Shown here piece by piece: positions 6,473 to 26,782 of a stretch of 26,940 nucleotides of DNA. Positions within the stretch are counted from its first letter, which is position 1. The number at the start of each line of letters is the position of its first letter. The notes beneath the pieces were generated by a model. It ran no database searches. It worked only from the letters and a program-made list of their open reading frames with translations, and was not told the origin of the DNA. Source of the stretch: a virus; IMG/VR virus record IMGVR_UViG_3300038420_000072, positions 1 to 26,940 of that record; one strand, written 5' to 3'. A program made the position numbers and the translations under genes.

Positions 6473-7229
6473 GAAAAAAGTTGCGGTTGAACTCGATCGT
6501 GTAGGTGAAGATCTTCCCACAGAAGTCACACCTGTAATCGACGTCATTGTCCAGCCGCGGGTGAAGCTCATCGACCTTGCTGCCAAGGTAGTCCTGGTCC
6601 TTTGGTGACAAGGCCCTGAACCAGTGAAGCAGCTCTCCCCTGGTGTCAGGTTTTCCACCACCGATTGAGACGATGCCCCAGATGATGTGGGCCGTCATGG
6701 ATGGAAGCTCCTTGGCCTCGTCAAACTTGAGAGCATCGATGGCCTTCTCGTCACCAACACGAAGAGGCCGGATCTCAACCTCATCACCTGAGTCAGGCAG
6801 GGTCACCTTGTCTGTCCCGCCCCAGCCAGGAGGCTTCTCGGCCAGCTTCCTGAGCTGATCAGGGATCTTCAGAGACTCCGGCTTGTTGGTCCTGTTGCAA
6901 AATGAGCAGACGGGCGAAAACTCAATCGTGTTCCCATGCCGAAGTGACCGGCTCACCAGCAAGATGGTGCTGGCGTCGCCAACGAAGAGCTCGTTGACAT
7001 CGGCCCCGTTGAGGTCGCACAGGTTCGGCACGATGTCGAACATGTTTGACCCTTGGTTCTTTCCTTGGGTGAGCATCCAGTCATCAACTTGGATGTCCCA
7101 CGGGTAGATCGTGATCTCACCATTCGGAAAGGCTTTTGGGTTGACAAACCCACCCGATAGCAGCCGAATGCGTTGCTTGAACTTCTCCCGAGCCGGGATG
7201 TCGATGGCTAACTTAGTCTTGATTGGCAC
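6456..7229 (-). CDS. T4 gp26-like baseplate protein with two zinc CxxC pairs
   Basis: From GTG 7229 this is 257 residues, starting VPIKTKLAIDIPAREKFKQR. It has FPNGEITIYPWDIQVDDWML at about 35-55, then C108-S-F-C111 and C234-D-F-C237-G-K, with an Ile/Phe-rich C-terminus. Known members of the T4 baseplate gp26 family have this order: an N-terminal 'LPS-x-G' type segment, a region rich in R-P-L-R, and paired CxxC at the middle and end. The family acts in baseplate hub assembly. The start could also be ATG 7289, but that would overlap the divergent kinase gene. It leads a minus-strand operon that includes the Tat protein. Confidence 0.65.
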   Translation of the reverse strand: MPIKTKLAIDIPAREKFKQRIRLLSGGFVNPKAFPNGEITIYPWDIQVDDWMLTQGKNQGSNMFDIVPNLCDLNGADVNELFVGDASTILLVSRSLRHGNTIEFSPVCSFCNRTNKPESLKIPDQLRKLAEKPPGWGGTDKVTLPDSGDEVEIRPLRVGDEKAIDALKFDEAKELPSMTAHIIWGIVSIGGGKPDTRGELLHWFRALSPKDQDYLGSKVDELHPRLDNDVDYRCDFCGKIFTYTIEFNRNFFRGGVV

Positions 7230-7236
7230 ACCTAGA

Positions 7237-7247
7237 AGAACAGTTCT
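7237..7247. promoter_or_regulatory. perfect palindrome between divergent genes (possible operator)
   Basis: AGAAC-A-GTTCT is a perfect inverted repeat with a one-base centre, nested in TAGAA...TTCTA, in the 29 bp between the gp26-like start (7229) and the kinase start (7259). Its position between two divergent starts suggests a binding site for a regulator, but an 11-base palindrome can arise by chance. Confidence 0.25.
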
Positions 7248-7258
7248 ACGAGGCTGAA

Positions 7259-7864
7259 ATGGGCAAGCTAATAGCATTTTCTGGCGCATGCCACAGTGGC
7301 AAGACCACGGCCATCCGTGACATCAAGGAGCACTTTGGCGACCGGATCTTGGTCGCCAGTGAGTGCATTCGCCAAAAGTCAGTTGTCAGCATCGACCAGA
7401 TCAGGAGCAACCCAAGGGCCTACCTTGAGTTTCAGTTTGAGGTCATCCGCGAAAAGTTCACGGCAGAGCAGGCCATCATCCAACAGAACCCCAACGCCGT
7501 CATCTTGACCGACAGGTCGCTGGCTGACTCGTTCTTCTACTATGTCTTCTACGTCGACAAGTCCACCCTGCCGCGTGAGCTGCTCGAGCGCTACACCGAC
7601 TTCTTCAAGTGGCTTTACTTCCGGACGCTGACATCAGCCAGGTGCTATGACCACATCTTCCTCTTCAGGCCGCTTAAGCCCGATGAGCCAGACCTGCTCA
7701 GGCCAGGCAACCTAGACCTCCTCCAAGATGTGGAGTTTTTCTTCATCAAGACCCTAGTCCTTGGGTTCTACTCGCAAACTAACGTGACAGAGATCAGCGC
7801 AGACAATGAAACCGACATCAACACCCTCTACAGTCTCGTCGACGCCTACCTTACCAAGGCCTAG
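7259..7864 (+). CDS. P-loop nucleotide kinase (AAA_28/NadR-like), probable dNMP kinase
   Basis: This 201-residue protein starts MGKLIAFSGACHSGKTTAIR, with Walker A G9-A-C-H-S-G-K15-T. The later TDRSLADSFFYY is the Asp-Arg segment seen in nucleoside/nucleotide kinases and NadR-type ATPases. DHIFLFRPLKPDE matches the 'lid' segment where such enzymes describe a hydrophobic strand followed by basic residues. I chose ATG 7259 because GAGG lies 6 bases before it. It is directly upstream of the dCMP hydroxymethylase-like gene, so I infer that it phosphorylates the modified nucleotide (hydroxymethyl-dCMP to the diphosphate). Substrate is inference. Confidence 0.7.
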   Translation: MGKLIAFSGACHSGKTTAIRDIKEHFGDRILVASECIRQKSVVSIDQIRSNPRAYLEFQFEVIREKFTAEQAIIQQNPNAVILTDRSLADSFFYYVFYVDKSTLPRELLERYTDFFKWLYFRTLTSARCYDHIFLFRPLKPDEPDLLRPGNLDLLQDVEFFFIKTLVLGFYSQTNVTEISADNETDINTLYSLVDAYLTKA

Positions 7865-8840
7865 CCCCGACCTAGAGATCCCAATTGACAACGTGCTTAG
7901 CCAGCGGTTTGATGACATGCTGGCCAGGCTCACGGTCAGGCCGATCATAAACGACAGGCGTGGCCAACTCAAGGAGATCATCGACCTTGGGGTCACGTTC
8001 AAGGACATCCCAGGGCCGATCTTCTTCTCATCTAGGATCCAACCACAAGAGGACATCTGCTATGTGGCCGCCCAACTGTGCTGGTATGCCAAAGGCCGCC
8101 AAAGGCTTGATGGGGTTGAGACCTATCGGCCAAAGATGTGGAAGCGAATGACAGACAGCCTAGCAACAAGACAAACTGATGTTGACCCTCGACTCGACCT
8201 GAACTCGAACTATGGCGAGTATGTCTTCAAGGAAGGGCAGCTTGACCTGGCCATCACCCGGCTTCACAAGGACCCAATGACCAGACAGGCAGTCATCCTG
8301 CTAAACCGGCCAAGTGTCCTGATCAGTGACACCCAGGACCACGTCTGCACGACCAGCCTGCAGTTTCTCATCCGTGACGGGAAGCTTCACTGCATCGCCA
8401 CAATGCGCAGCAATGAGCTCTGGGACGGCTTTCGCTACGACGTAGCATTCTTCACGTTCTTGATGGACTATGTCCGGGCTGAGCTCAGTGCCAAGGGACG
8501 CACGGGTATCGTGCTTGGCGACTACATCCACAATGTCGGCTCGTTTCACTGCTACACCCAGGACTCACTCTCTATCAAGTGCAGCTCAGACCTGGAGGGG
8601 TTGGCCTTTGTCTTCCCGCAGCTTAACCTGGGTGAAGGGCCGGCCCTGGTCAAGGAACTTCCACACCTCGAACAACTTATCAAGGCCATGGCCGGTCAGC
8701 CATCCAAGGGCCTGTCAGTCATGTGTGACACAGACTCTCGCGATGGTTGGAAACACTACCACACCATCGTCAACCTCCTCTTTCACGCGGCAAAGAGGAT
8801 CAACCAAAAAGACCTTGCCCACGGTCCACGCATCTTATGA
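7806..8840 (+). CDS. thymidylate synthase-fold enzyme, predicted dCMP hydroxymethylase
   Basis: This 344-residue protein (from ATG 7806; GTG 7893 is an alternative that avoids the 59 bp overlap with the kinase) shows the TS family order: DPMTRQAVI (phosphate-binding Arg), C181-T-T-S-L-Q-F (catalytic Cys), RSNELWDGFRYDVAFF, and GSFHCY (H-x-Y). Aligned without gaps to the E. coli TS segment RSCDVFLGLPFN, the base-reading Asn177 is replaced by D212. In T4 dCMP hydroxymethylase this position is also Asp, and an Asn-to-Asp change in TS is known to shift preference to dCMP. I infer synthesis of 5-hydroxymethyl-dCMP using methylene-tetrahydrofolate. It overlaps the carbamoyltransferase start. Confidence 0.8.
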   Translation: MKPTSTPSTVSSTPTLPRPSPDLEIPIDNVLSQRFDDMLARLTVRPIINDRRGQLKEIIDLGVTFKDIPGPIFFSSRIQPQEDICYVAAQLCWYAKGRQRLDGVETYRPKMWKRMTDSLATRQTDVDPRLDLNSNYGEYVFKEGQLDLAITRLHKDPMTRQAVILLNRPSVLISDTQDHVCTTSLQFLIRDGKLHCIATMRSNELWDGFRYDVAFFTFLMDYVRAELSAKGRTGIVLGDYIHNVGSFHCYTQDSLSIKCSSDLEGLAFVFPQLNLGEGPALVKELPHLEQLIKAMAGQPSKGLSVMCDTDSRDGWKHYHTIVNLLFHAAKRINQKDLAHGPRIL

Positions 8841-10573
8841 ACCTGCTCCTTACGCTTGGCCACAACGCATCTGCCATCTGGACCGATGGTGTCAACGTCA
8901 TTGGCTATGAGCAAGAACGACTGTCTCGGGTCAAGAGTGACTCCAACTTTCCTGGCTTAGCCATTGACAAGATTGCTGAGCAGGTAGGAGACCGCAAGCC
9001 GATTAACCTCTTCGTCTCACACTGGTTTGACTGCAAGTCACTCAAGACAGCCAAGCACCCTAGGCTGGAAAAATACTGGCATAGGCCAGCTGTCAAGAGG
9101 CTGACCAAGGGTGGAGGTGGCATCTTCGACATCAACTGGGCCTTCACCCACCACGACGCCCACGCCTGGGCAGCCATCGCATTCTACCGCCAGCACATGA
9201 CCAAGCTGCCAAGAGAGACCGTGCAGGTCATCGTCTGTGACGGGTTTGGAACTCGGCAAGAGGTCTTCTCCATCTATGCCATCGACCCATGGAACCACAG
9301 CTGGACCCCATGCCTCCACTCCAGGGTCTGTGGCTTCAGGTGGTCACTTGGCCTGCTCTACCAATATGCAACGTCATTCTGCAGGATGAAGGAAAACCAA
9401 GATGAGTATAAGTTCCTTGGCTACGAAAGCCGGATCAGGACGAACGCCTCTGCCCACACGGTCAAGGTGGTTGAAAACTTAGCCGAGGCCCTGGTCGAAA
9501 GGTGGTGGGCTGACGAGAGCCTGTTTGACGGCCACGTCACCTACAACGCCAACGACTTCATCCACACAGACAGCCTTCACAAGGTCAAGGCCTACTGGCA
9601 TGAACACTTTAGCAAGCTTCTCGAGAGGGTGAACATGTCAAACAATGGTCTCGTCACCCCAGAGAGTCTTAAAGGCCGGGCCATCATCGGCCACTACATC
9701 CAGACGATCCTTGAGACCTTCTACAAGAGGGTCATCGACGAGTTTCACATCAAGAATGCCATCGTGACTGGTGGCGTCCACTACAACGTCAAGCTGAACA
9801 ACTTCATCCTCAAGAGCATCCCTGGCCAATTTTGCGCCGTGCCACTTGCCGGAGACCAAGGGGCGGCCATTGGGGTCTACGTCAGACATGGCTTTCACTT
9901 TCCATTCACGTCACTCCAGTGGGGCCGAAGGGCCTTGCCACCATTCCCAGACCATGTGGGCACAGTTGAGATCGGTGAATCTGGGGCCCACTGGACAAAC
10001 AGCCGCAGCGCCTACGTCAGCATCATCACCGACCTCCTCAGGCAGGACATGATAGTCAACACCGTCACGGGAAACATGGAGTTCGGCCCCAGGGCCCTGT
10101 GCAACACGTCGACCTTAGCCCTGCCTACGAGGGAGAACGTGGACATCATCAACGCCCTCAATGGCCGTGACACCGTCATGCCGTTCGCTCCGGTGATGCT
10201 TGAGGCGACGGCCCGCAGTATGTTCAGCCAGGCAGAGCTCAGTCGCACCGTGGGCTCAGACCGCTACATGATCGTCACCCACGACTGGCGCAGGAAGGTC
10301 ACCACGGAGTTCGACGGCGTGGCCCACCCATATCCAGATGGCAGTGGCTTCTCAGGCCGGCCGCAGATAGTCTACCCGGGCGACCCCATGCCGATCCGTG
10401 AGATCCTCGAAAACCTGGGTGGCGGGCCGATCATCAACACCTCCTTGAACGTCCATGGGGTGCCCATCGTCTACTCCGAAGATGACGCCCTACACGACTT
10501 CAAGTTCAACCTGAGGATGTCAAAAGACCACGCCTTCAGGAAGGTGCCGGTGCTTGTCGTTGGGGCCTTTTGA
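8837..10573 (+). CDS. NodU/CmcH-family carbamoyltransferase, predicted DNA-base carbamoyl transfer
   Basis: This 578-residue protein starts MNLLLTLGHNASAIW, the usual opening of the family. Further motifs are EQERLSRVKSDSNFPGLAI, FTH105-H106-DAH109AWAA (metal/catalytic His cluster), GGVHYNVKLNN, LAGDQGAAIG, MEFGPRALCNTSTLALP at 414-430 and INTSLNVHGVPIVYS near 534. Length fits the two-domain fold (Kae1-like plus YrdC-like) that uses carbamoyl phosphate and ATP to carbamoylate hydroxyl groups. ATG overlaps the TS-like stop (ATGA). In phages, carbamoyltransferases next to dCMP hydroxymethylases are known to make 5-carbamoyloxymethylcytosine, so I infer that role; an antibiotic-type substrate is unlikely in this setting. 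Confidence 0.85.
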   Translation: MNLLLTLGHNASAIWTDGVNVIGYEQERLSRVKSDSNFPGLAIDKIAEQVGDRKPINLFVSHWFDCKSLKTAKHPRLEKYWHRPAVKRLTKGGGGIFDINWAFTHHDAHAWAAIAFYRQHMTKLPRETVQVIVCDGFGTRQEVFSIYAIDPWNHSWTPCLHSRVCGFRWSLGLLYQYATSFCRMKENQDEYKFLGYESRIRTNASAHTVKVVENLAEALVERWWADESLFDGHVTYNANDFIHTDSLHKVKAYWHEHFSKLLERVNMSNNGLVTPESLKGRAIIGHYIQTILETFYKRVIDEFHIKNAIVTGGVHYNVKLNNFILKSIPGQFCAVPLAGDQGAAIGVYVRHGFHFPFTSLQWGRRALPPFPDHVGTVEIGESGAHWTNSRSAYVSIITDLLRQDMIVNTVTGNMEFGPRALCNTSTLALPTRENVDIINALNGRDTVMPFAPVMLEATARSMFSQAELSRTVGSDRYMIVTHDWRRKVTTEFDGVAHPYPDGSGFSGRPQIVYPGDPMPIREILENLGGGPIINTSLNVHGVPIVYSEDDALHDFKFNLRMSKDHAFRKVPVLVVGAF

Positions 10574-12726: not shown

Positions 12727-15501
12727 CTAGCTGGTGACTGGGCTGCTGCTGATGCTGTTGATGGTCGCCCCAGAAGCGTTGACAGTCGCGTTGACGTAGA
12801 GCCGCTCCATCGTCCCGAATGGGATGAAGTTGAGGTTGACAACTGCCGCGTTTGCGTTTTGGACCTCGGCCGTGTTGTTGGACGCGTCCATCTTGAGGGC
12901 ATAGTCAGCCAAGGCCCTCGAGTCCTTGAGGACATCCAAGAACGAGGAGTAGTCGTTCGTGACCAAGGTCATCAGCTCCGGGTCGTTCGGGTCGAAGATG
13001 TATTTCCGGCCAAGGAGGTCCAGCTGGCGAACCATATACTTCGTCAGCATCGCCACGGCCAGATCGGTAAGCTTGTCAGTCTCACCTGGCGGAACACGCA
13101 GGAGCGTGCAGTTGCCGTAGATCAGGATCTCGCCATACTCGGCGAGGATTGGGTTGACCACCTGGCCGCCGCCATACATGGCCTGCTTGGTCGGCATGCT
13201 GAGGTGCGGGAACTCAATCGCGATGGCCCACGGGGACAGCACACCTCGCGTCTCACCAGCCGCGGCATACCACGGTGCGAAGTGGGTCGCCGTGTATGCC
13301 TGTTGGCGCATCAGGGCGATTGAGGGTGGCACCCAGACGTTCAGGCCAGTGAATGGGTCGACGATCTGGGCCCAGCTCCACAGCATGGCCCCATGCCAGG
13401 TGTCCAACTTGCCTCGGCCAATGCCGGCCACACCTGTCCCGTTGGTCCAGTCGACAATCGCCCGGCCGTTCAACCCCAGGGGTGGGTCGATGAGCGCCTC
13501 AGCAAAGATGGCCTCAGCGATTGAGAACATCTCCTGCTGGACGCCGAAGTCGGTGACACCCGGGACGGCGATGGCAGCCAGCCCGAGGTTCTTGCCCTGC
13601 ATGAGGAAGGCCTGGAGACCGGTGTAGGTGTCGGTCGCGGTGTCGTAGGTCCCGATGTAATCTGCAGGCTCGGCATTCTCACCGTCAAAGCCGAGGCCAT
13701 ACCCGCGGTTGGTGTCACCAAACACCGCAAAGTTGACAACCTGGACACCGATCCCCCAGCCGTTCATCGTGTTGGCCGGAGGCGTGAAGGTATTGTAGCC
13801 AAGGGTGCCAGAGACCGTATTCGACAGCATGCCGGAAGGGCTGTTGACATCGTCCGAAGCCAGGGTGAAGATCGCGATGTAGTCAGAGATCCCGTTGATC
13901 ATCGCCGGGTAGTAGGACAGCGACGCTGGGTCCGTCGACAGGTTGTCGATCGTCTCCACCAGTGACCCATTCAGGTAGGTCATGAACTTCTTCGTCCCAG
14001 GGGTGGAGCCTGGGGCTACCTTGGTCCACAGGCCAGTTGAGACCCCGTCGCTGTTGGCCCACGTGCCGGCCGAGGAGGCCACGATGTGCATGCAGGGTGT
14101 GGTCACAAAGGACCCGGCAGAGTCACGGTTGACCTTGTAAAGCTGCCCGGCCACGTAGGTGTCTTGAAGGGCCAAGGCCACGTAGCCAATCTCGTTGTTG
14201 TTCGACGGGTAGAGGTTGACGGTCGACCCACCGACGATCTCCTGGACCATGGCCTCGCGGGTAGTCCCAAACCCGGTTTGAGCAATCTGGATGAGGTCGC
14301 CTGGAGCTAGGATTGCGATGGTGATCGCGGTGGCACCGGCGGCTACCGAGACAGACCCTGATGGGACGTTGTTGTAGATCTTCAGGTTTCCCTGGGCCGT
14401 CATCTCGATGGAGGAGTAAACCCTGACGTATGTCCCCTGGGCCGTGAAGTCACCCGTCGATGTGAGGGCCTGCGAACCGTTGATCAACATCGTCTCGTTG
14501 GCAGACTTCGTCCAGTGGTAGAGAGACCCAGGGGCGACCGTAACTTGGACATACCCACTGGCCAACGACTTGCCATTCAGGATGTCCGAGCCCAGGCTTC
14601 CCGGGACGGTGACTGTCAACGTCGTCTGGCCAGACGTGGGGGTGTTGGTGGCGACTGTGGCGACCGTGAACTCATTGTTGATGACCGTCGAGTTCGTGTT
14701 GTCGATGTGGATCCTGTCATTGACCTGGAACACTAAGGTGACCACCGTGTCGTCCAAGATGATGGTCCCAACAGTTCCGGAGATGCTCATCGACACCACA
14801 GGCTGTGGCCCCACAACCCCGGAGACGGTGAACTCATACTCACCCTTGTTGCCAGAGACGAACCCTGCACTGCTGGTGTAGTCGTTCGCCCCATAGACCA
14901 GCGACTCAAGAAATGACTCGGCATTCGAGGCCGCGTTGGGCAGCGTGCTCCGGTCAATCTGGGCATTCTCGACATACTCATTGGACAGTGGGGCACTGCT
15001 GGACAGCACAAGGCCAACCAGGTCCGCTGTCGAGGGCAGTGTGGTCAACACCCCACCATCTGTGATGTAGCCAGTGACAATGGCGTTGGTTGAGGTGATG
15101 TTGCCGGGGCAGGTGACACGGAGGTAGTCACCGATCGAAAATGACTTGACCTTGGTCGTGAAGATCATCGTGTCAACGACCGGGTGAGAGCCAGAAGAGA
15201 ACGTGTGGGAGCTGGTGCCGTCGGTGGCGATGGCCTTATACTTCTTGCCAACCCGCGTGAAGACGATGCCATCCGAGTTTTGGGCCACGGCCGCAACGGC
15301 TTGGGCACCGTAAGGCACTGATGCCTGAGGATACCCAAACACCTGCAGATAGCCTTCCACAGATGAGATTGCCGTCGGGGTATCCATCGGGCCCTTGGTG
15401 CCCACGGCCAAGATGCCAGCCACGTAAGGGCTGGCTGGTGCCGTGACGGCGCTTTTGTCCGTGATAGTCGGATAGACGCCCGGAAATGTTTGGATGCTCA
15501 T
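12727..15501 (-). CDS. tail sheath protein (gp18-like), enlarged
   Basis: This 924-residue protein starts MSIQTFPGVYPTITDKSAVT, with PGVY and the segment GILAVGTKGPMDTPTAISSV typical of sheath N-termini. The C-terminal part (GNCTLLRVPPGETDKLTDLA, then a helical VAMLTKYMVRQLDLLGRKYIF) matches the conserved sheath core that carries the inter-subunit strands. Known contractile-tail sheaths are about 390-660 residues, so some 250 or more residues are extra, most of them Thr/Ser/Val-rich and beta-like between about residues 90 and 480, probably surface domains. It works with the tube gene downstream. ATAGGA is the likely ribosome site. Confidence 0.85.
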   Translation of the reverse strand: MSIQTFPGVYPTITDKSAVTAPASPYVAGILAVGTKGPMDTPTAISSVEGYLQVFGYPQASVPYGAQAVAAVAQNSDGIVFTRVGKKYKAIATDGTSSHTFSSGSHPVVDTMIFTTKVKSFSIGDYLRVTCPGNITSTNAIVTGYITDGGVLTTLPSTADLVGLVLSSSAPLSNEYVENAQIDRSTLPNAASNAESFLESLVYGANDYTSSAGFVSGNKGEYEFTVSGVVGPQPVVSMSISGTVGTIILDDTVVTLVFQVNDRIHIDNTNSTVINNEFTVATVATNTPTSGQTTLTVTVPGSLGSDILNGKSLASGYVQVTVAPGSLYHWTKSANETMLINGSQALTSTGDFTAQGTYVRVYSSIEMTAQGNLKIYNNVPSGSVSVAAGATAITIAILAPGDLIQIAQTGFGTTREAMVQEIVGGSTVNLYPSNNNEIGYVALALQDTYVAGQLYKVNRDSAGSFVTTPCMHIVASSAGTWANSDGVSTGLWTKVAPGSTPGTKKFMTYLNGSLVETIDNLSTDPASLSYYPAMINGISDYIAIFTLASDDVNSPSGMLSNTVSGTLGYNTFTPPANTMNGWGIGVQVVNFAVFGDTNRGYGLGFDGENAEPADYIGTYDTATDTYTGLQAFLMQGKNLGLAAIAVPGVTDFGVQQEMFSIAEAIFAEALIDPPLGLNGRAIVDWTNGTGVAGIGRGKLDTWHGAMLWSWAQIVDPFTGLNVWVPPSIALMRQQAYTATHFAPWYAAAGETRGVLSPWAIAIEFPHLSMPTKQAMYGGGQVVNPILAEYGEILIYGNCTLLRVPPGETDKLTDLAVAMLTKYMVRQLDLLGRKYIFDPNDPELMTLVTNDYSSFLDVLKDSRALADYALKMDASNNTAEVQNANAAVVNLNFIPFGTMERLYVNATVNASGATINSISSSPVTS

Positions 15502-16901: not shown

Positions 16902-17464
16902 TCAGCTGACTTGATCTCAGCCAGAGCACCCTCACTCTTCTCTGGCCCCTTGGCCTGTGCTGGGTTGACAACCGGTTTGGCATCGCCTTCGATGGCAATC
17001 TCAGTGTGGCATGTCAGGCCCATCCAGCAGTTCGTCTGCTGCCAATAGGCCTCTGGTGGGATCTCAACCTCGATGATGATGTTACGGTAACCACTGTAGA
17101 CGATGAAGTCACCCTTCTGAGGAAAATAGTCCCACTTTTGCAGGTGGAGAAAGGCCATGATGACCTGGTTCGTGCGCCTTGGGATAAGCACCTTCGTGTT
17201 GAGGTCAAAGACCCACTTTTGCTTCGAGGTGTGCACTATCACCGGGATGAACAGCTCACGAGAAAACTGTGTTCTTGAAGACAACGGAACGTGCCAAACT
17301 GGATCTATCCGATCCGTCGACCGCTCCACCTCCAAGGTCTTAGGCGCAGGTCTTGGGGTATACTTTTGGACATACTCTGCGTAGACCTTAAGCGCAGTTT
17401 GAGTTTCTGCCAGCCTGAAAAGCGCGGGGTCATACAGAAACTCTTTCTGTTCCGTAAATTTCAC
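16898..17464 (-). CDS. unknown virion-assembly-type protein
   Basis: This 188-residue protein begins at GTG 17464 (MKFTEQKEFLYDPALFRLAE). A central beta-rich segment, WDYFPQKGDFIVYSGYRNII then EVEIPPEAYWQQTNCWMGL, looks like a small structural domain of the neck or connector kind; a Pro/Ala/Glu-rich tail ends it. The 'pQKGD-x-V-x-Y-x-G-Y' block is a pattern I associate with phage neck-region proteins, but I cannot name the family. It is the first gene of the minus operon leading to sheath and tube, and it diverges from the plus gene at 17479 with 14 bp between starts. Confidence 0.6.
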   Translation of the reverse strand: MKFTEQKEFLYDPALFRLAETQTALKVYAEYVQKYTPRPAPKTLEVERSTDRIDPVWHVPLSSRTQFSRELFIPVIVHTSKQKWVFDLNTKVLIPRRTNQVIMAFLHLQKWDYFPQKGDFIVYSGYRNIIIEVEIPPEAYWQQTNCWMGLTCHTEIAIEGDAKPVVNPAQAKGPEKSEGALAEIKSAE

Positions 17465-17781: not shown

Positions 17782-18233
17782 AGGAATCAGACCTTCCGCA
17801 GGTTTGCGCTCGATGTCATAAACAAAAGGCGGCCAATACTGGTCGGTTTTTCTGGAGCCGCACCCGGTATCACACCCGTGTCTGGGTATGCTTTGAGTGC
17901 TTGGATAGGCCAAAGATCCTGCGGCTTGCCAGGCCTGGAGAGGAAACGCCTCTCGAGAAGGAGGCTCGTGAAGCCTTGGAGCAGCTTCATGTCAAGGCCT
18001 TTGCCGAATACCCGATTGGTCGATTCATCTTCGACTTCGCCATCCCAAAGCTGCGGATGCTGATTGAGATTGACTCCGTTACCTATCACCGGCGCTGGCA
18101 CAACATGCTGGCTGACAAGAGGAAAAATGAGTGGGCCCAGAAGAACCTCTGGCACCTGGTCCGGATCCGCGCCCCAGACATCGCCCAACAGGTGGTCCAC
18201 GCCGTCATGAAGAGGGCCCAAGAACTCCGATAA
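17778..18233 (+). CDS. zinc-finger Vsr/DUF559-like endonuclease, possible homing enzyme
   Basis: This 151-residue protein begins at GTG 17778 overlapping the upstream stop. C10-A-R-C13 and C38-F-E-C41 form a zinc site. The rest, FIFDFAIPKLRMLIEIDSVT with D86, E97 and D99, then YH104, LADKRKNEW and LWHLVRIRA, matches the PD-(D/E)XK core of Vsr and DUF559 nucleases. Phage members of this group include free-standing homing endonucleases. An alternative is a restriction-like nuclease acting on host DNA. It lies immediately before promoter copy 2 and near the antisense HNH gene. Confidence 0.7.
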   Translation: MKESDLPQVCARCHKQKAANTGRFFWSRTRYHTRVWVCFECLDRPKILRLARPGEETPLEKEAREALEQLHVKAFAEYPIGRFIFDFAIPKLRMLIEIDSVTYHRRWHNMLADKRKNEWAQKNLWHLVRIRAPDIAQQVVHAVMKRAQELR

Positions 18234-18268
18234 ATTCTTGTTTACAAGTTCTGGCCCGGCAGTATATT
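18232..18268 (+). promoter_or_regulatory. sigma70-like promoter, copy 2 of a duplicated element
   Basis: TTTACA (18241-18246) and TATATT (18263-18268) are 16 bp apart, with the same AAATTCTTGTTTACAA lead as copy 1 and again placed right after a stop codon. It points plus-strand into the region of the HNH gene and onward to the amidotransferase, so it probably once, or still, drives that gene. Confidence 0.6.
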
Positions 18269-18286
18269 GATGCCATGATGACGACG

Positions 18287-18766
18287 TTAATATACGCGCT
18301 GAGAGCGCTTGTTCGCCCAGTCACCGTTCTCGATCGTCTTGATCCGGTGGCAGTTGGAACACAGCAGTTGGCACTTTCGAGCCTCTGCGACCAGAACCGC
18401 CCACGGTCGACTCATGGAAGCCGTAGTCAAGCTGAACAGTTTCGTAGCCGGGTTTCGGTGGTCGAAATCAAGCACCCTAGGATCGGTTATCGGGCATCGA
18501 CTACACTGTCCACCGAACATGTCAACCAACCGTTTCTTTACAGCGGCCAGTTTTGCCCTGTATCGCTTAGACGCATCCGCCATTATCTGGCAATATCTCT
18601 CTGGAGCACGTCTCCGGCGTTGGTCAGTAAGCTGATGTTGGCGTTCTCGGTTCTTGCGAAACCAGTTTCTGCCTTTAACCGCATAGTAAGCCCTTTTTTG
18701 GGCTCTCAACTTGGCCTTGTTTTTCGCATAGTAGTTGCGGTCGTAGTTTGGATCTTTGCACGGCAT
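18287..18766 (-). CDS. HNH endonuclease, probable free-standing homing enzyme
   Basis: This 159-residue protein starts MPCKDPNYDRNYYAKNKAKL with a very basic N-terminal DNA-binding region. The HNH core is seen at C88-S-R-C91, FD102-H103-R-N-P, and C136-S-N-C139-H140. Such enzymes cut a target DNA and copy their own gene. It is antisense to the genes on both sides, lying between promoter copy 2 and the amidotransferase. Because its codons contain no TTA, CTA or TCA, the plus strand stays open through it. That lets an in-frame extension run into the amidotransferase, but I think that is chance. Confidence 0.85.
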   Translation of the reverse strand: MPCKDPNYDRNYYAKNKAKLRAQKRAYYAVKGRNWFRKNRERQHQLTDQRRRRAPERYCQIMADASKRYRAKLAAVKKRLVDMFGGQCSRCPITDPRVLDFDHRNPATKLFSLTTASMSRPWAVLVAEARKCQLLCSNCHRIKTIENGDWANKRSQRVY

Positions 18767-18790
18767 GTGCTAAATACTCATGACCACACC

Positions 18791-19864
18791 GTGTCGATTG
18801 CCTGTGCCATCTTTGGCTGGAACGAGAAAATTGACAATGCGATCCTGAGGCGCCTCTTCACAGAGGCCCGCCCATTCGGGAACCACAGTGTCGGACTCGT
18901 GTATCTCGATGACGATGGCCCAAACATCTTCAAGCGGGCCATCGACCCAACTGCCTTCCTGCGGAACCACAACCACCGAGTTGAGCGCGCCTCTGCCTCC
19001 CAATTGGGATTTGGCCATGTCCGCTGGCCCACACATGGGGCTGTCACCGACGAGAACGCCCACCCGTTCACGTATGCCAAGGGTGATGGGCCACCGATCA
19101 TCTTCGCCCACAACGGGGTCCTTCGCAACTACCAGGAGCTGGCCACTGAGAAAGGCCTTGGCCACATCGCCGTGGACAGCCAGTGCCTTGGGCCACTCAT
19201 CGCCGATAAGGAACTTGGCCGGGCTGACGGCTCCACCGGCGTCATCTGGGTTCAGGACAACCGCCTCTTTGCCTACAAGCACTGGCAGGGCCTTCACGCC
19301 TACCAAGTTGACGTCAATGGCGTGCTTGGGACAGTCGTGGCGTCCCGGACGTGCATGGTGACCAACATGCACTACACCGTCTCGAGCTTCAAGGTAGTCA
19401 AGGAACTGAGGTTTGACTCGTATGTCGCCTATGAGGTGACCCAAGGCGACTTGATCCCACTGTGGGACAACCTGGAGATGACCCGTCCTCGGCCCAAGAA
19501 AAAGAAGAGGGCTGCCTTAGAGTGCAGTCAGCCACAGCTTCTCCCAGCCCCCAGGTTTCCGATCACCCAGGCAGCCCCAGCTCAGCTGGACGATGACAAC
19601 GCGGCAACTGAGAAGGTCAGGATGGCCTTTGAGATCATCGTTCTCTACGGCCCGGGTGTCTCCTGTCAGATCTTTGGCAACGGGCCAGACCAGATCTGTG
19701 AGGCCGTCAGCGAGTTTGTCCTGGCTGATGGTGGACTCACCATGGTGGGCGGGTCCCAAGTTGGTGATGAGTGGACCTCAACCAAGCTGGCCGAGTGGCG
19801 GGAGCAGGCCATCACCTACTTCAACAAGGATGTCCAGGTCATCTGTGAGACCGTCCTGGCATGA
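18791..19864 (+). CDS. class II (Ntn) glutamine amidotransferase
   Basis: From GTG 18791 this is 357 residues, starting MSIACAIFGWNEKIDNAILR. The class II motifs are in order: the Cys near the start with an AIFGW context, FGHVRWPTHGAVTDENAHPF, FAHNGVLRNYQEL and DSQCLGPLI. These form the glutaminase site, in which a free N-terminal Cys releases ammonia. Here the Cys is residue 5, so it needs removal of a short leader or a different start. No ATG in frame lies close by; an upstream in-frame ATG (18275) would put over 170 residues in front. The C-terminal 130 residues carry a KKKKR patch and an unknown domain. No synthase domain is attached, so the ammonia user is unknown. Confidence 0.75.
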   Translation: MSIACAIFGWNEKIDNAILRRLFTEARPFGNHSVGLVYLDDDGPNIFKRAIDPTAFLRNHNHRVERASASQLGFGHVRWPTHGAVTDENAHPFTYAKGDGPPIIFAHNGVLRNYQELATEKGLGHIAVDSQCLGPLIADKELGRADGSTGVIWVQDNRLFAYKHWQGLHAYQVDVNGVLGTVVASRTCMVTNMHYTVSSFKVVKELRFDSYVAYEVTQGDLIPLWDNLEMTRPRPKKKKRAALECSQPQLLPAPRFPITQAAPAQLDDDNAATEKVRMAFEIIVLYGPGVSCQIFGNGPDQICEAVSEFVLADGGLTMVGGSQVGDEWTSTKLAEWREQAITYFNKDVQVICETVLA

Positions 19865-20250: not shown

Positions 20251-20615
20251 AAGAAAGCACCATCATCGCCAAGGCCATCCGCATGTTCAAGTGTGACACG
20301 GCCAGGATCTCAAGGCCATGCCACTGGATGTTCCTGATCATCGGCACAAGGAAACACACCAAGGACCAGTCTTCCGGCTGGTATGACCAAGACGGCAAGC
20401 GGCGTGATTTTGCCTACACTGAGGAGAAGGTGATCGCGTCCGGAAAGACCGTGGCCAAGCTCCTAGAGTCCATGGAGAGATATAGGTGGGCCCTCAGGTG
20501 GGAGACAAGGCAGAGGCGCAAGAGAGGCGCTCAGTTGATCTCACCGCGCGTCAGCGTGACTGACGACGTCACCATGCCGTTGACGACATTGTGCGTTGCC
20601 TCAAGCACGGCATAG
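20247..20615 (+). CDS. small basic protein with convergent 3' overlap
   Basis: This 122-residue protein starts MKESTIIAKAIRMFKCDTAR, again by an ATGA overlap with the previous gene. Residues 1-95 look real, with a basic helix ALRWETRQRRKRGAQL. The last 28 residues lie antisense to the end of the hub gene, an 85-bp convergent overlap. No family is recognised. Confidence 0.6.
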   Translation: MKESTIIAKAIRMFKCDTARISRPCHWMFLIIGTRKHTKDQSSGWYDQDGKRRDFAYTEEKVIASGKTVAKLLESMERYRWALRWETRQRRKRGAQLISPRVSVTDDVTMPLTTLCVASSTA

Positions 20616-21616
20616 ACCCCACTCCATGGGTTCAAGCTTGTCGCAGACTGGGTAAAGTCTAAGTTCACGAGGTCATCAACCCTCATCAAGATCTGGTCCG
20701 TCCTCAGTGTCACCACATACTCCTCCAGGTGGGCCAGCTCATACATGGCCTGGGCGATGAGTGTCGGCTCAATTGGCTGGTTTGCGCCAATGGTCCAGTC
20801 TACGATGCGAGGCCCACCCCTGATGCTTGAGAAGTTGGGGTAGCTCTTGGCCATCTTTGTCGTCGGCGGCTTGGAAAAGACCTGGCTGATGGTGCCACTG
20901 TGAGGGTTGAACACATGCATCAAGATCCCGGCCCCTCCAAGGTGGATCTGCTTCTGGGTTGAGTCATCAAACACGGCCGTCGTAGAGGGCCCAAAGAAGT
21001 GCCTAAGCGGGTAGGGCTTCTTCTTGTATCCAGTCGTGTGAAAGTGCAGCTCCCCATCTCGCACATAGGTCCTGAAGTCAGCCCTGCCATTTGAGTTGGC
21101 CGACCGCTTGAGAAGCCGCTCAGTGATAAACTCAAAGTCAGAGGTGTGTGACTGGATCAGGTTGAAGTTCCCATTAGTCGGCTCTACCACAGGGACCAGG
21201 CCATAGTTGTTGGCCACCGCCGTGACCATGTCACCAACAGTCCCTTGCCAGGCAGCCATGATCGTCTCACGGTCCATGATGGCAAAGTGGTCACTCGACT
21301 TCATCAAGATCGTATAACCCTCCGGCTTGGGGATTGACCTGAGCAAGACAACCAGGTGAGCCTGCCATGGGCTCCAGTTAACCTGGCTGCCAGCGTTGGT
21401 CCCGATACGAACGTAGACCAGCGGCGTTGGCGCCAGCATGGCATCGTGGAAGCTGCTGTTGAACGAGGTCACGTCTGTCGACGCGATCGTGTAGGTCCAG
21501 GTGGCCGGGACGTTGACTCGCTCTTGGATGATGACCCTGACAGGCGTGACGCCATCAACGGCCTGGATGACGCCGTGCTGCTTAAGGCCAAACTGGGTGA
21601 TGACCTGACCTTGCAT
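20531..21616 (-). CDS. baseplate hub protein (gp27 / gpD / XkdQ-like)
   Basis: This 361-residue protein starts MQGQVITQFGLKQHGVIQAV. It has the layout of hub proteins that hold the spike: N-terminal beta domain, a middle stretch like SDFEFITERLLKRSANSNGR then DGELHFHTT, and a C-terminal beta domain with LRTDQILMRVDDLVNLDF. In gp27/gpD-type hubs the 'F-x-x-x-L-L-x-R-x-A-x-x-x-G' block forms the conserved core. It would form a trimeric ring around the spike (1807-2841). Not next to the spike here; identity rests on this pattern. Confidence 0.6.
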   Translation of the reverse strand: MQGQVITQFGLKQHGVIQAVDGVTPVRVIIQERVNVPATWTYTIASTDVTSFNSSFHDAMLAPTPLVYVRIGTNAGSQVNWSPWQAHLVVLLRSIPKPEGYTILMKSSDHFAIMDRETIMAAWQGTVGDMVTAVANNYGLVPVVEPTNGNFNLIQSHTSDFEFITERLLKRSANSNGRADFRTYVRDGELHFHTTGYKKKPYPLRHFFGPSTTAVFDDSTQKQIHLGGAGILMHVFNPHSGTISQVFSKPPTTKMAKSYPNFSSIRGGPRIVDWTIGANQPIEPTLIAQAMYELAHLEEYVVTLRTDQILMRVDDLVNLDFTQSATSLNPWSGVYAVLEATHNVVNGMVTSSVTLTRGEIN

Positions 21617-21928: not shown

Positions 21929-22456
21929 TTATGACGGCCATGGGAATGACGACCAAGGCGGCTGGACCATCGCCTGAGGATACTTGGTCTCGGTCTTGTC
22001 GAAGCTCATCTGGTCCCACTGGAGGAGTGACTCGAGCGTGACCCTGACATTTGCGGGCCCGAGGCCGTCGGTGAAGACCTCAAGGTAAGACCGCTGGGTC
22101 TGAAACGTGACACGCACGCTGCCATAGCCACTGACGAAGAGCGTGCTCCCAGTCCCACTGTTGATGGCCACGATGTTCCCACGAAGGTCGCCACCGGCCG
22201 CGTCATAGAGCGAGCAGCGAGCACCAGACCCAGCCAAGACGGCACTCGTCCTGTCATCCAATGGGACAAAGCTTAGCTGGAGAGCCGTGTCCTCAAGGTT
22301 CTCGATGGTCGCGGAGACCACGCAATATCCTGAGGTTGGAGGAGCCGTGCTCGCCAATGCCGGGGCAAAGAGACGGAAGGTCGAATACCCGCTGATCATC
22401 GGGCATTGGAACTTGGTCTGCCTCGGGTTAGGCTGAGGATATTGTCCTGGATACAT
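21929..22456 (-). CDS. beta-rich structural-type protein, unknown
   Basis: This 175-residue protein starts MYPGQYPQPNPRQTKFQCPM. A short Pro/Gln-rich arm is followed by alternating beta strands (YCVVSATIENLEDTALQLSF, GYGSVRVTFQTQRSYLEVF) and a Trp/Pro-rich tail. This is typical of virion decoration or tail proteins. AAGGAGGA 9 bases before the ATG is the strongest ribosome site in this part, suggesting high expression, which fits a structural protein. Confidence 0.65.
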   Translation of the reverse strand: MYPGQYPQPNPRQTKFQCPMISGYSTFRLFAPALASTAPPTSGYCVVSATIENLEDTALQLSFVPLDDRTSAVLAGSGARCSLYDAAGGDLRGNIVAINSGTGSTLFVSGYGSVRVTFQTQRSYLEVFTDGLGPANVRVTLESLLQWDQMSFDKTETKYPQAMVQPPWSSFPWPS

Positions 22457-22458
22457 GC

Positions 22459-24306
22459 TTAGTCCTCCTTGCCGGAGATGGTCGGATTGCGCCGGCCTTT
22501 GCCAAACCGGCCGCGTTCACGGCTGGCGCTGGCACTGCCCCTGCCTTCACGGCTGGCACTGCCTCCAAATCCACGGCTGGCACTGCCCTCGCGGCTGGCA
22601 CTGCCGCGAGCGGCCTCCTCGTCACCAAGCTCGCGTTCCGCGCTGCCAAACTCAAACTCAGCGCTCCCTAGCCCAGCTTCCTCACCCTCGCTGCCAAGCT
22701 CACCGAACTCACTGCCGGCACTACCACGGCGAGGGCCGCCAAAGGCCCCGAACGAGTCCTCACCACCGGTGTCCAACGCATCGGCATCAAAACCACCTTC
22801 GCTGCCAGGCTCTGGAAACTCGACACCTTCCTCACCTTCTGGCCCGGCGAGGCTGGTCTGTTGCAAGGCCTGGACAGCCGGAACCAGCTCAGAGATGCCT
22901 GCGTTGATGGACCGCAGGAGGTTAAGAGCTTCGCTCTCGGCCGAGACCTCACCCTCCGCACCCGTTGTCGGAGGTTGATTTCCCATGGCGGCAATCGAAC
23001 CAGGTTGCTGCTGAAGGGCGGTCGTAGCATCCTCCATCATCCCCCTGACTGTCTGTTGTGCTTCCGTGAGGTTCATAATCATTGTCTTTGCCAAACTATC
23101 TACAGTCTTGCCTTCTTCACCTTCGCCCGGAATTTCAGGCGGCAAGGGTTCAGGTTTCAAGTCAACTATCCCGTGAAAGTCAAGTGGGTTGGTCTTAGCC
23201 GTAGGGTTCTTCCCACTCCCATGGCATGTGAAGCATGGCTTGCTGTCCTTCTGCCCGGTCCCCTTGCAAGTTGGACATGCATTTTCCTTCGTCACGCCCT
23301 GCTGAAGCTGCTGTGGCTCTGTCATCTCAGGCTCCTCTTCTCGCTTGGCCTTAGGGTGCTTCCCGGCAGCCTTGTCAATCGCCCCTGGCTTGCCCTCACG
23401 CTTGTTGAGCCTGGCAAGCAGAGTCTTGTAGTCTCTCGCCTTGGCCAAGGCCATGAGCTCTGGCTCGTTGGCATGCCGATGCTGGGCATAAGACACCAGC
23501 CGGCTAAGGGCGCTGCCATCATCTGGGCTGTCGCTCGTGATGATGTCCAGTGAGTTGTCAATCCAATTTCTCAGCGCCAAGATGTGCTTGCACAGGCCAG
23601 GCATGCCGGCAGGGTTGGTGATGTGTGGGGCCCGGTTGATGCACTGGTTCATGCTCTTCGGCCCAATCCTGCTGGCCCCCTTCTGCTTGTCAACCCACGC
23701 CCACCTATAGCGAAAGTCAGGGCAGGTGCAGTCCACGAGGCAGTCAAGGTCCATCAGTGGCTTGCGCTGCTTTGGCTTGATAAACTTGACGAAGCCCTTG
23801 TGCCGAAGGCCAGTCGTCGACGGTGAACTCTTGAAGTTGAAGAGGTAATACATCCCATCCTCAACGGCCCGGATGTTGAGTGGTGGGCCATGGACGGTCA
23901 AGCTGCGGATGACTCGCTTCGGCTCGCTGTAGTTCATCAGCTGCCGAAACGACATTCGCTCCTCGAGATATTGGACAGACTCCTCTCGCCTCATGGCATT
24001 CTTGATAGCCAAGTTGCCTAACTGAACTTCCTCTCGTGGGTTGGCCAAGACGTAGAAGTCATAGTCATCGATGATCACCCTGTAAAGCTTGTCCTCTGAC
24101 TTCTTCAGCCTAACAAATGAGGCCATATCTTCCTGAGACGTGTCAACAGATGCGGCTAGGTATCGAAAAGGCTCCAGAAGCTTCTCACACTTGGACATCG
24201 GAGGCCATGCATGACCCGTGTTTATGCGAATAACTGGTATACCTCCAGTTGGTGGACGAAACCGTGGCATCTCACACAGGTCGATGACAGCTCGGCTGTT
24301 CACCAC
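22459..24306 (-). CDS. SWIM zinc-finger protein with DnaJ-type zinc pair and low-complexity tail
   Basis: From GTG 24306 this is 615 residues. After an N-terminal region, C193-T-C195-PDFRYRW and C239-K-H241-ILALR form a SWIM-type CxC...CxH zinc finger, a DNA- or protein-binding fold. At 344-361, CPTCKGTG and CFTCHGSG match the DnaJ Zn-binding repeat, which grips unfolded proteins. A Gln/Ala-rich helical part follows, then about 130 residues of Gly/Ser/Glu repeats ending with GSASRE copies. The GTG overlaps the upstream stop (TGGTGGTGA). The mix suggests a scaffold-like binding protein, for DNA or for tail proteins given the operon; function unknown. Confidence 0.7.
   Translation of the reverse strand: MVNSRAVIDLCEMPRFRPPTGGIPVIRINTGHAWPPMSKCEKLLEPFRYLAASVDTSQEDMASFVRLKKSEDKLYRVIIDDYDFYVLANPREEVQLGNLAIKNAMRREESVQYLEERMSFRQLMNYSEPKRVIRSLTVHGPPLNIRAVEDGMYYLFNFKSSPSTTGLRHKGFVKFIKPKQRKPLMDLDCLVDCTCPDFRYRWAWVDKQKGASRIGPKSMNQCINRAPHITNPAGMPGLCKHILALRNWIDNSLDIITSDSPDDGSALSRLVSYAQHRHANEPELMALAKARDYKTLLARLNKREGKPGAIDKAAGKHPKAKREEEPEMTEPQQLQQGVTKENACPTCKGTGQKDSKPCFTCHGSGKNPTAKTNPLDFHGIVDLKPEPLPPEIPGEGEEGKTVDSLAKTMIMNLTEAQQTVRGMMEDATTALQQQPGSIAAMGNQPPTTGAEGEVSAESEALNLLRSINAGISELVPAVQALQQTSLAGPEGEEGVEFPEPGSEGGFDADALDTGGEDSFGAFGGPRRGSAGSEFGELGSEGEEAGLGSAEFEFGSAERELGDEEAARGSASREGSASRGFGGSASREGRGSASASRERGRFGKGRRNPTISGKED
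22519..22605. repeat. imperfect tandem repeat coding for GSASRE units
   Basis: The 14-base unit CGGCTGGCACTGCC occurs about four times with a few variable bases between, encoding Gly-Ser-Ala-Ser-Arg blocks at the C-terminus of the SWIM protein. It could vary in length between relatives by slippage. Confidence 0.7.
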
Positions 24307-24833
24307 CAGCCCCTCCCACGCTGTAACTTCCTTGGCTTTCCAAGCCGGTTAGGCTCCTCCTTTAACTTTGGCTTTGGCGTGGATGGCTCATAGTTCGGTG
24401 ACCGGCTCGCGATGTCAGACTCGCCAAAGATGGCCACGCCTGCATAGACCAGCTCACCACCTGAGATGCTTGGGTTCATCCTCCACAGCATGACATCATC
24501 TGGGGTGATGCCTAGGATCTTCTGCAACTTGAAGACCTGGTCACCTTTCAGCCTGGTCTTCTTGGCCCGGCTTATCAGCTCAAACCTGGCCCTTGGGTGC
24601 CCACCGAGCCTTCGGATGATGACAACCCCACCCGCCACCAAGCTATCGAGCGTGGCCCCAAAAAAGTTAAGGCCATGCAGAAAGTCCATAAGCCCATCGC
24701 ACTGAGCTTGAAAATCTGGGTCTCGGCTGACAAACCCATCAGGAAACTTGGGCATCTTTCCTGTGGCAAAGAAGATCGCCTTGGGCTCCTCACCCTCCTC
24801 GAATAGTTGATCGATCAGTTGCCTTGCCGTCAC
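24300..24833 (-). CDS. unknown protein
   Basis: This 177-residue protein begins at GTG 24833 (MTARQLIDQLFEEGEEPKAI). It has an alternating helix/strand core (ATLDSLVAGGVVIIRRLGG) and a long basic Pro/Lys/Arg tail ending RGRGWW, likely disordered and nucleic-acid or acidic-protein binding. It leads the minus operon ending at the hub protein and diverges from the Rad50-like gene with 29 bp between starts. No family is recognised. Confidence 0.65.
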   Translation of the reverse strand: MTARQLIDQLFEEGEEPKAIFFATGKMPKFPDGFVSRDPDFQAQCDGLMDFLHGLNFFGATLDSLVAGGVVIIRRLGGHPRARFELISRAKKTRLKGDQVFKLQKILGITPDDVMLWRMNPSISGGELVYAGVAIFGESDIASRSPNYEPSTPKPKLKEEPNRLGKPRKLQRGRGWW

Positions 24834-24838
24834 ACACT

Positions 24839-24853
24839 AACTACCTCTTAGTT
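24839..24853. promoter_or_regulatory. short inverted repeat between divergent starts (possible operator)
   Basis: AACTA-CCTCT-TAGTT lies in the 29 bp between GTG 24833 and ATG 24863. The 5-bp arms are weak evidence alone, but a second divergent gap (7230-7258) also holds an inverted repeat. Confidence 0.2.
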
Positions 24854-24862
24854 CTTCTGTCA

Positions 24863-26782
24863 ATGGCCAACCTAAACATCCGTGGGATTGCCATCCGGAA
24901 CTGGGCCACCATCACCACCGCCGAACTTGAATTTCCAGAATATGGGCTCGTGTTAGTCTTGGGAAATAACGTTGTCTCTGAAGGCCACCTCGACAGCTCT
25001 GGCGCTGGGAAGACAAACTTTGGGGCCGCCCTGTCCAAGGCAGTCATGGGCTTACCAGAAAAGCCACTCGTGAAATTTAGCCGCCGGCCACAGCGCAACG
25101 ACACCTATGTCAGGGTGGTGGCCGAACTCCAAGGACGGCCATTCGACATCGAGATCGGCTACAGGTGCAAGGAACTGAGCAGGACTGGCGAGGGGATTCG
25201 TTTCACACGCGCCGGGACGGCCGTCAGCCGCCCACACATATCCCTGACCAAGGAGGAGCTGGCCAAGGTCACCGGGATAGCGTCTAACCTGGCCCAGTGG
25301 ACAATCTGGGTAGACGGTGACAAGATCCAGTTTGACGAGCTGCCACAGGCCAAGGCCGTCGACCTCCTGATGACAACCCTGCACCAGCCACCGTGGTTAG
25401 CTGCCACAAAACGAAGCCGTGAGGTCCTTGACCACTTCTCAGGCAAACATAACATCCTCTCTAGTAATGCTGACTCCACGCGTGAAAAGGTCAGTGAATC
25501 AGCTGGTGAGGTTGAACAGGCCATGGCCACACTTACGGCGGCCACGGCGAGATATGACACAGACGTGGCCGAACACCAAGCTAGGGTTGACGCAGCTGAA
25601 AGCTACATAAGACTTCACAGAAAGAGGTTAGAGGCCATCGAAGCTGGGCAGAGAAACATCACCAAGAAACTCAAGCAGATCGAAGAGTCAAAGGCCGAAA
25701 GGCACAAGGCCATCGAGTCATCTAAGGTTGAGATTGACGGCAACTTGCTCAAGGTCCAAGAGGAGATCCAAGGCCTTGTCAAGGCCCACACCACAAGGCA
25801 AAATGCCAGGGCCAGTGAAGAGACACTTCTAAACCGGCCTAAGGTCTGCCCAACATGCCAAAGAGATTGGGTCATGCCCACAGAGCAGTTTGAGTCATTG
25901 CAGAAAAAGGTGGGTGAACTCCGTCAGGCCGAAGACTCCGCCAAGGCCGCCCTTGACAAGGCCAGGCTTCGTGAAAAGGCGCTGAGAGGCACGCAGGCAG
26001 GCCTAAACCAGCAGGCCAGTGAGCTAAACGCCGACAGGCCCACACGACGGCTTAGCAAGGCCCACCAAAAGCTGGGTCTTATAGCCGGGGAGATCGCGGC
26101 TGATGTCCGACAACTGGAGCAGCGCCTGCGTGGTCTAGCCGTGCCTCCAGATCGCTCCAAGGTCGTTGAGGCCGAAACCAGGCTGGCAGACAAGCGGGCC
26201 GAGCAGCTCCGGCTTCAAGAAGGCTTGTCCAGGATGTCTGGGGAGCTATCCGAAAGTGAGCAGATGATCTCGGTCATCAAGTATTGGGTTGGGGCCTTTG
26301 GGGCCGCTGGGGTGTCGAACATGGTCCTGCGCGAGGCCATTGGCCCACTCAACGAGATCGCCCGCCGAGTCTCCCACGCCATGACCTGTGGCATGCTTGA
26401 GATCAGCTTCTCAACTCAGCGTGAGCTGGCCACAGGCGAGGACAAGGACGAGCTGGTGGTCAACATCAAGAACGTCTTTGGGTCGGACGACCTCGACATG
26501 AGCAGCAAGGGGGAACGCATGCTGGCCAACCTGATCATCGCCGAGACCTTGTCTGAGCTAAGCCAAGCCTCAAGCTTGGTCAACTTCAGCTGGTATGACG
26601 AAGTTGCCAGAGGCTTGCCACCCCACGTGCGCGCCGTCCTCTACCAATATCTCAAGGAAAAGGCCGAGCGCGGACGCCAGCTCATCTTTGTCGTTGACCA
26701 CAACAACGAGAGCGCCGCCTTTGCGAACTATGTTCTCATGGCTGAAAAGACATCGGCTGGGACACAGCTCAGGTGGCAATGA
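24863..26782 (+). CDS. Rad50/SbcC-like ATPase (T4 gp46-type recombination endonuclease subunit)
   Basis: This 639-residue protein starts MANLNIRGIAIRNWATITTA. The Walker A region is G34-N-N followed by an insertion and then SSGAGK50-T-N, the split P-loop seen in phage gp46-type proteins. A coiled coil (about 190-500, Lys/Glu/Ala-rich) has the zinc hook C329-P-T-C332 in the middle. The ABC signature is SSKGERMLANLIIAETL near 547, followed by a Walker B-like WYDEVARG near 577. The protein would pair with a gp47/SbcD nuclease to process DNA ends for recombination-driven replication. That partner is not in the window. Confidence 0.85.
   Translation: MANLNIRGIAIRNWATITTAELEFPEYGLVLVLGNNVVSEGHLDSSGAGKTNFGAALSKAVMGLPEKPLVKFSRRPQRNDTYVRVVAELQGRPFDIEIGYRCKELSRTGEGIRFTRAGTAVSRPHISLTKEELAKVTGIASNLAQWTIWVDGDKIQFDELPQAKAVDLLMTTLHQPPWLAATKRSREVLDHFSGKHNILSSNADSTREKVSESAGEVEQAMATLTAATARYDTDVAEHQARVDAAESYIRLHRKRLEAIEAGQRNITKKLKQIEESKAERHKAIESSKVEIDGNLLKVQEEIQGLVKAHTTRQNARASEETLLNRPKVCPTCQRDWVMPTEQFESLQKKVGELRQAEDSAKAALDKARLREKALRGTQAGLNQQASELNADRPTRRLSKAHQKLGLIAGEIAADVRQLEQRLRGLAVPPDRSKVVEAETRLADKRAEQLRLQEGLSRMSGELSESEQMISVIKYWVGAFGAAGVSNMVLREAIGPLNEIARRVSHAMTCGMLEISFSTQRELATGEDKDELVVNIKNVFGSDDLDMSSKGERMLANLIIAETLSELSQASSLVNFSWYDEVARGLPPHVRAVLYQYLKEKAERGRQLIFVVDHNNESAAFANYVLMAEKTSAGTQLRWQ

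Follow-up and report, generated by a model that had tools for sequence, protein, structure and literature searches.

A phage family of SWIM zinc-finger proteins with a proposed nested gene in its long-tailed members

Introduction

SWIM zinc fingers have been described as binders of DNA or protein. In phage lambda, the scaffold Nu3 is nested in the gene of the protease C, so that the two products have their C-terminus in common. C and Nu3 interact during head initiation (PMC3224144), and in phage T4 a second start codon in the gene for gp21 gives rise to an essential short form (PMC9026906).

Here we analyse a 26.9 kb virus record, the whole of which is called the window below, and in it a gene whose ORF we verified on the minus strand, with a GTG start and 615 codons for amino acids (Table 1). 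An earlier note on this DNA had read the encoded protein as a SWIM finger joined to DnaJ-type zinc repeats and a repeat-rich, probably disordered tail, acting perhaps as a DNA-binding chaperone or condensate-like scaffold in virion assembly. All three parts are present in the ORF, but a comparison of 56 relatives indicates that they are not one conserved machine: the SWIM finger, the disordered repeat tail, the structural operon and the virion-assembly setting stand, and the chaperone does not. The SWIM finger is a known kind of domain; the new part is the nested gene proposed below.

Table 1. Features of the SWIM gene and its surroundings, in window coordinates
Feature	Position	Strand	Remark
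SWIM protein, long form, 615 aa	22459..24306	-	47% identity to L001 over the full span
N-terminal domain, residues 1–112	23971..24306	-	Clear match in the nearest relative only
SWIM core domain, residues 116–260, conserved	23527..23961	-	56-sequence alignment; AlphaFold2; PHROG 18980
SWIM ligands C193-x-C195	23722..23730	-	Conserved 56/56; CxC required by the scan pattern
SWIM ligands C239-x-H241	23584..23592	-	Conserved 56/56; CxH outside every scan pattern
Two CxxCxGxG motifs, residues 344–365, DnaJ/anti-TRAP-like zinc knuckle	23212..23277	-	
Two predicted tail helices, residues 402–433 and 456–486	22849..23103	-	AlphaFold2; conserved in tail alignments
Internal late-promoter-like element, TGTAGATA	23097..23104	-	Sole TGTAGWTA match in the window
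Proposed nested in-frame gene, ATG 23074–23076 (M411), 205 aa tail-only product	22459..23076	-	
GSAS/SRE repeats, residues 568–597, within disordered tail 489–615	22516..22605	-	
Downstream 175 aa gene (cluster 2), follows SWIM in long-tailed loci	21929..22456	-	Predicted beta-sandwich
177 aa gene overlapping the SWIM start, N-terminus MTARQLIDQLFEE of a recurrent motif	24300..24833	-	
TAGTTA element upstream of the SWIM operon	24838..24843	-	Third-best PWM match in the window

A SWIM core defines the family

Searching viral contigs with the SWIM region turned up 136 relatives, and 80 of these were retained. An alignment of 56 sequences has just four invariant columns, C193, C195, C239 and H241, precisely the ligands that the earlier note had assigned to the finger. 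In profile-HMM searches the window protein taken alone fell below the curated cut-offs for both of its supposed domains (E 0.22 and 11.6 bits against a cut-off of 19.6 for SWIM; E 4e-4 for DnaJ_CXXCXGXG), and among the 56 family members the SWIM profile PF04434 matched 33 at E ≤ 0.1 and the DnaJ profile a single one, the window protein itself. Because the SWIM ligands are invariant, PF04434 is found in 33 of the 56 members and DnaJ in one, we take the SWIM core to define the family.

The core is predicted by AlphaFold2 to adopt a confident fold (pLDDT mostly >90 over residues 116–260), and the domain N-terminal to it a moderately confident one (pLDDT about 75–90 at residues 25–108). As in PF04434, the ligands follow a CxC...CxH arrangement; the difference is that in the window family the finger is embedded in a larger, phage-specific core. 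That core is homologous to PHROG 18980, a group of unknown function (E 5.7e-10), and to SWIM proteins of the isolates Motura, PaBG, Yoloswag and SP-15 (tblastn E 3e-7 to 1e-2), which measure about 140–220 aa and lack the tail. At full length, the protein of L001, on a 230 kb contig, is 47% identical to the window protein from end to end. The named BFVD matches at E < 0.001 were phage proteins, among them the Motura protein, labelled SWIM-type. A PDB fold search with the window model gave no significant match (best E 0.08), and a profile search for a solved structure among the relatives found none.

A cellular origin was considered and not retained: scanning genome contigs yielded only 6 matches, all weak and on MAG contigs. 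A plasmid search yielded none. Yersinia phage phiR1-37, checked as a possible studied relative, had no match, a search of defence families turned up nothing convincing, and a search on phage SWIM proteins found no relevant paper in the literature collection covered. Each of five larger records carries one SWIM gene, as judged by SWIM profile search. The window protein is best explained as a member of an uncharacterised family of SWIM zinc-finger proteins that is restricted to phages and whose genes lie with those for the virion in large myophages.

One further member bears on the finger itself. Inteins prefer functional sites of conserved proteins (PMC7765530), and the SWIM gene of L154 (577–3441) contains a 402-aa intein, with Cys1, a terminal Asn, Cys+1 and a LAGLIDADG domain, placed exactly between the two CxC cysteines. 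Given that preference, the site of insertion supports a functional importance of CxC. The comparison describes an uncharacterised protein family of large phages and singles out four residues as the most important.

A proposed nested gene in the tail

The tail of the window protein (residues 484–615) is rich in Gly, Ser, Glu and Arg, with GSAS at residues 568, 574, 582 and 590 and a short DNA tandem array at 22528–22605 underlying the repeats. Its stretch from residue 489 to 615 is predicted to be disordered (pLDDT <50, AlphaFold2), which, with the four GSAS copies, agrees with the disordered repeat tail proposed earlier. GSASRE-like repeats are found in the window phage and its nearest relative L009 only. 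What the alignments indicate to be conserved in the tail goes beyond that first view: besides two predicted helices, which form the conserved part of the tail protein across the long-tailed group, there are a promoter-like element and an internal start codon.

The element reads TAG[A/T]TA, in most cases with A or G in front, and lies upstream of a conserved tail methionine in the long-tailed group. It was noticed first in the SWIM genes and tested elsewhere afterwards. We located it 5–47 nt before the conserved start in 16 of 20 long-tailed SWIM genes (at more than 40 nt in L014 and L030), and L010, L019, L022 and L027 are without the exact element; the start was located by pattern after inspection and, because the genes are related, these are not 20 independent tests. 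First, when synonymous codons were resampled in 2,000 trials, the element arose in 0.64 genes on average and never in more than 4. Second, the Val codon within the element is GTA in 15/15 cases, as against 13% elsewhere. Third, in L026 the element sits in another codon frame. The resampling, the codon bias and the frame of L026 together suggest that selection acts on the DNA and not on the amino acids alone, and the sequence under DNA-level selection (16/20 against at most 4 when resampled) would be a candidate expression signal of a nested gene.

The same element recurs before other genes. In the 45 nt ahead of conserved gene starts, [A/G]TAG[A/T]TA was found 38 times against 1.7 expected, an enrichment of about 22-fold. 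We built a position weight matrix (PWM) from 44 such sites, leaving out the window and the SWIM genes, and its six best matches in the window include the starts of a 186 aa gene at 3619, the SWIM operon, the tube, the sheath and a 188 aa gene at 17464; the internal SWIM site ranked 10th over both window strands. The element is thereby a candidate late promoter of the window phage group, supplied for phages of which this analysis found no cultured member.

Just upstream of window genes, [A/G]TAG[A/T]TA was seen at those starting at 3619(+), 12716(-), 15501(-), 17464(-) and 24833(-), as well as in group A loci; its distance to the gene start is mostly 4–7 or 15–28 nt, and a conserved upstream box is absent. 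The loci L032–L057, some of which are near-duplicates, have another candidate promoter element, TATTTATA: it was counted 54 times in the 40 nt ahead of gene starts, where 2.6 were expected, and it precedes 14 of the 26 SWIM genes there.

The internal element might serve the downstream gene, cluster 2, alone, in which case the tail methionine would be incidental and only the long SWIM protein made. Cluster 2, whose predicted beta-sandwich fold is not diagnostic (TM below 0.5), comes after SWIM at a distance of at most 40 nt in loci with both genes, and a look at the 110 nt ahead of cluster 2 revealed no GTAGWTA element of its own. An incidental methionine is harder to reconcile with a start codon that is ATG in 19 of the 20 genes, with the GTG that L012 has 5 nt past the element, and with a methionine that is invariant in 17 aligned tails and marks the point at which tail conservation begins; the spacing between element and start, moreover, is like that ahead of sheath genes. 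A promoter for cluster 2 alone is the alternative that survives best, and we still consider it unlikely.

An internal in-frame start codon, as in the lambda C/Nu3 layout, is conserved in the long-tailed group, where the tail seems to hold a nested gene that is read in the same frame and has a start signal to itself. The gene would then make two proteins, a long one with SWIM core and tail and a short one consisting of the tail. A search for a stand-alone tail gene elsewhere found none. As it stands, the nested gene with its own promoter-like signal is a testable proposal.

Gene neighbourhoods

Structural genes neighbour the SWIM gene in the window, coding for a hub/tail-like protein (20531–21616), the sheath (12727–15501), tube-like proteins and a spike, which bears out its earlier placement in a structural operon. 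The gene order of the window group is a small or PDZ-type gene, SWIM, cluster 2, a hub-like protein and, further on, the sheath. A second group has SWIM downstream of a gp23-type capsid gene, and a third has it between neck (Ad2) and sheath, a setting shared by Bacillus phage SP-15; in the group of PaBG, Motura and Yoloswag it lies ahead of sigma, SSB and RecA genes. All told, the relatives are phage proteins whose genes adjoin those for head, neck or tail in three of the groups and those for sigma, SSB and RecA in the remaining one. Given that SWIM stands next to a capsid, neck, sheath or hub gene in the first three, virion assembly is the likeliest setting, in line with the earlier note.

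Several other genes of these loci deserve mention. An N-terminus resembling M-x-A-R-x-I-I-D-x-L-L-x-E, reminiscent of a capsid targeting sequence, is common to otherwise different proteins: those of window 24300–24833, of the genes just upstream of SWIM in L011, L015, L016 and L017, and of G001 12935–13480. The upstream gene in L016 encodes a PDZ-like domain. Divergent from the SWIM operon, window 24824–26782 encodes an SbcC/Rad50-like protein with a CPTC zinc-hook-like motif, and an SbcC-like gene occupies the same place beside the operon in much of the group. By eye, nucleotide-kinase-like, thymidylate-synthase/hydroxymethylase-like and carbamoyltransferase-like genes stand in a row at window 7223–10573, possibly a DNA base modification cassette, and a class II glutamine-amidotransferase-like protein is encoded in the middle of the structural region, both in the window (18131–19864) and in L001 (9680–10858).

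The fourth neighbourhood raises the question of whether the SWIM protein regulates late transcription, through DNA or a phage sigma factor, and has no part in assembly. The DNA or protein binding described for SWIM fingers would suit such a role, as would the order in the PaBG/Motura group, where a sigma or RNA polymerase gene, with SSB and RecA after it, comes either immediately downstream of SWIM or within a few genes. We tried PaBG virion proteomics as support for assembly, with a negative outcome: the 14 virion bands identified (PMC7412058) do not include the SWIM homologue gp120, which gives no support to an abundant structural role in PaBG. A regulator sits less well with the window group and two others, where SWIM lies within a capsid/neck/tail block, and with the promoter-like elements that the SWIM operon or gene shares with structural genes. 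Regulation is, on balance, an improbable reading, second among the alternatives.

Next in order comes a head-internal protein: its N-terminus would direct it into the prohead, a prohead protease of the T4 type would cleave it, and it would be ejected along with the DNA. T4 gp21 cleaves after L/I-x-E, and ten N-terminal residues are enough for targeting (PMC9026906). Nearly all long-tailed and capsid-linked members have a hydrophobic-x-Glu motif before the core that fits this published rule, similar sites occur in capsid proteins of the same phages, and genes for a T4-type prohead protease and a gp23-type capsid protein were present in 8/8 large contigs tested. Several members begin with a short amphipathic peptide, and a related N-terminal motif was counted 20 times against 3.8 expected, including in the gene immediately upstream of SWIM. 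These patterns are loose, however, and were picked after inspection; the Glu is mostly followed by Arg, Lys or an acidic residue, which sets it apart from the capsid sites; the conserved Glu could be structural; and in the window protein the stretch up to the site is 116 residues long. We therefore regard a head-internal protein as doubtful.

A DnaJ-like zinc-knuckle motif in one phage

The two CxxCxGxG motifs noted earlier are real in the sense that they start at residues 344 and 358 and that the pair was reproduced in 0/20,000 residue shuffles of the window protein. The two CxxCxGxG stand at a spacing similar to that in the DnaJ central domain and anti-TRAP (RtpA). DnaJ differs in having four repeats and a J domain, and in the window protein there was neither a profile match to a J domain nor an HPD tripeptide. 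The DnaJ-type cysteines, and with them the pairing of SWIM and DnaJ motifs, occur in 1 of the 56 aligned sequences, that of the window protein; at the corresponding position L001 has a Pro-rich linker. The region is predicted with a pLDDT <50 (AlphaFold2), and as far as the alignment reaches the zinc knuckle is a private insertion of one phage in a non-conserved, disordered linker. Being missing from every relative, the motif is not part of the family's function, and the DnaJ-type chaperone was rejected on this family comparison.

That SWIM and a DnaJ-type zinc domain cooperate as a DNA-binding fusion chaperone is accordingly highly improbable: both motifs are found in the window protein, the pair beyond chance, yet the DnaJ cysteines are confined to that member, two repeats stand in place of four with no J-domain match, and the knuckle falls in a low-confidence region. 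The pairing is a one-off and a poor guide for experiments.

Discussion

We lean, with somewhat more confidence than doubt, towards a late SWIM protein for virion assembly that is made in two forms, long and short, from a gene whose proposed internal promoter would also serve cluster 2. The long form, SWIM core plus tail, would start at the GTG of the full gene, and the short, tail-only form would come from the in-frame nested gene, under a promoter shared with the next gene. The tail-only form may be an acidic assembly or scaffold-like protein; the tail that both have in common would bring the long form into the same assembly, where its SWIM finger would reach phage DNA or a further virion protein. 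The tail-sharing step is proposed by analogy only, with lambda protease C and scaffold Nu3.

A broader version would extend this to a whole lineage of uncultured large phages. One gene would there have two products, a SWIM zinc-finger protein and an acidic, tail-only assembly protein, the latter read from an in-frame nested gene behind a late promoter of its own; through the tail it has in common with this scaffold-like partner, the SWIM protein would bring its zinc finger into the assembling virion. We hold this version more tentatively, doubt here somewhat outweighing belief.

Compared with lambda C/Nu3 and T4 gp21/gp21s, the proposed internal start in the window has a promoter-like element of its own, and its short product is a predicted one. 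The long form is also of another kind, a SWIM protein and not a protease. What the three would have in common is the arrangement itself, an in-frame internal start through which a late gene also yields its C-terminal part as a short protein.
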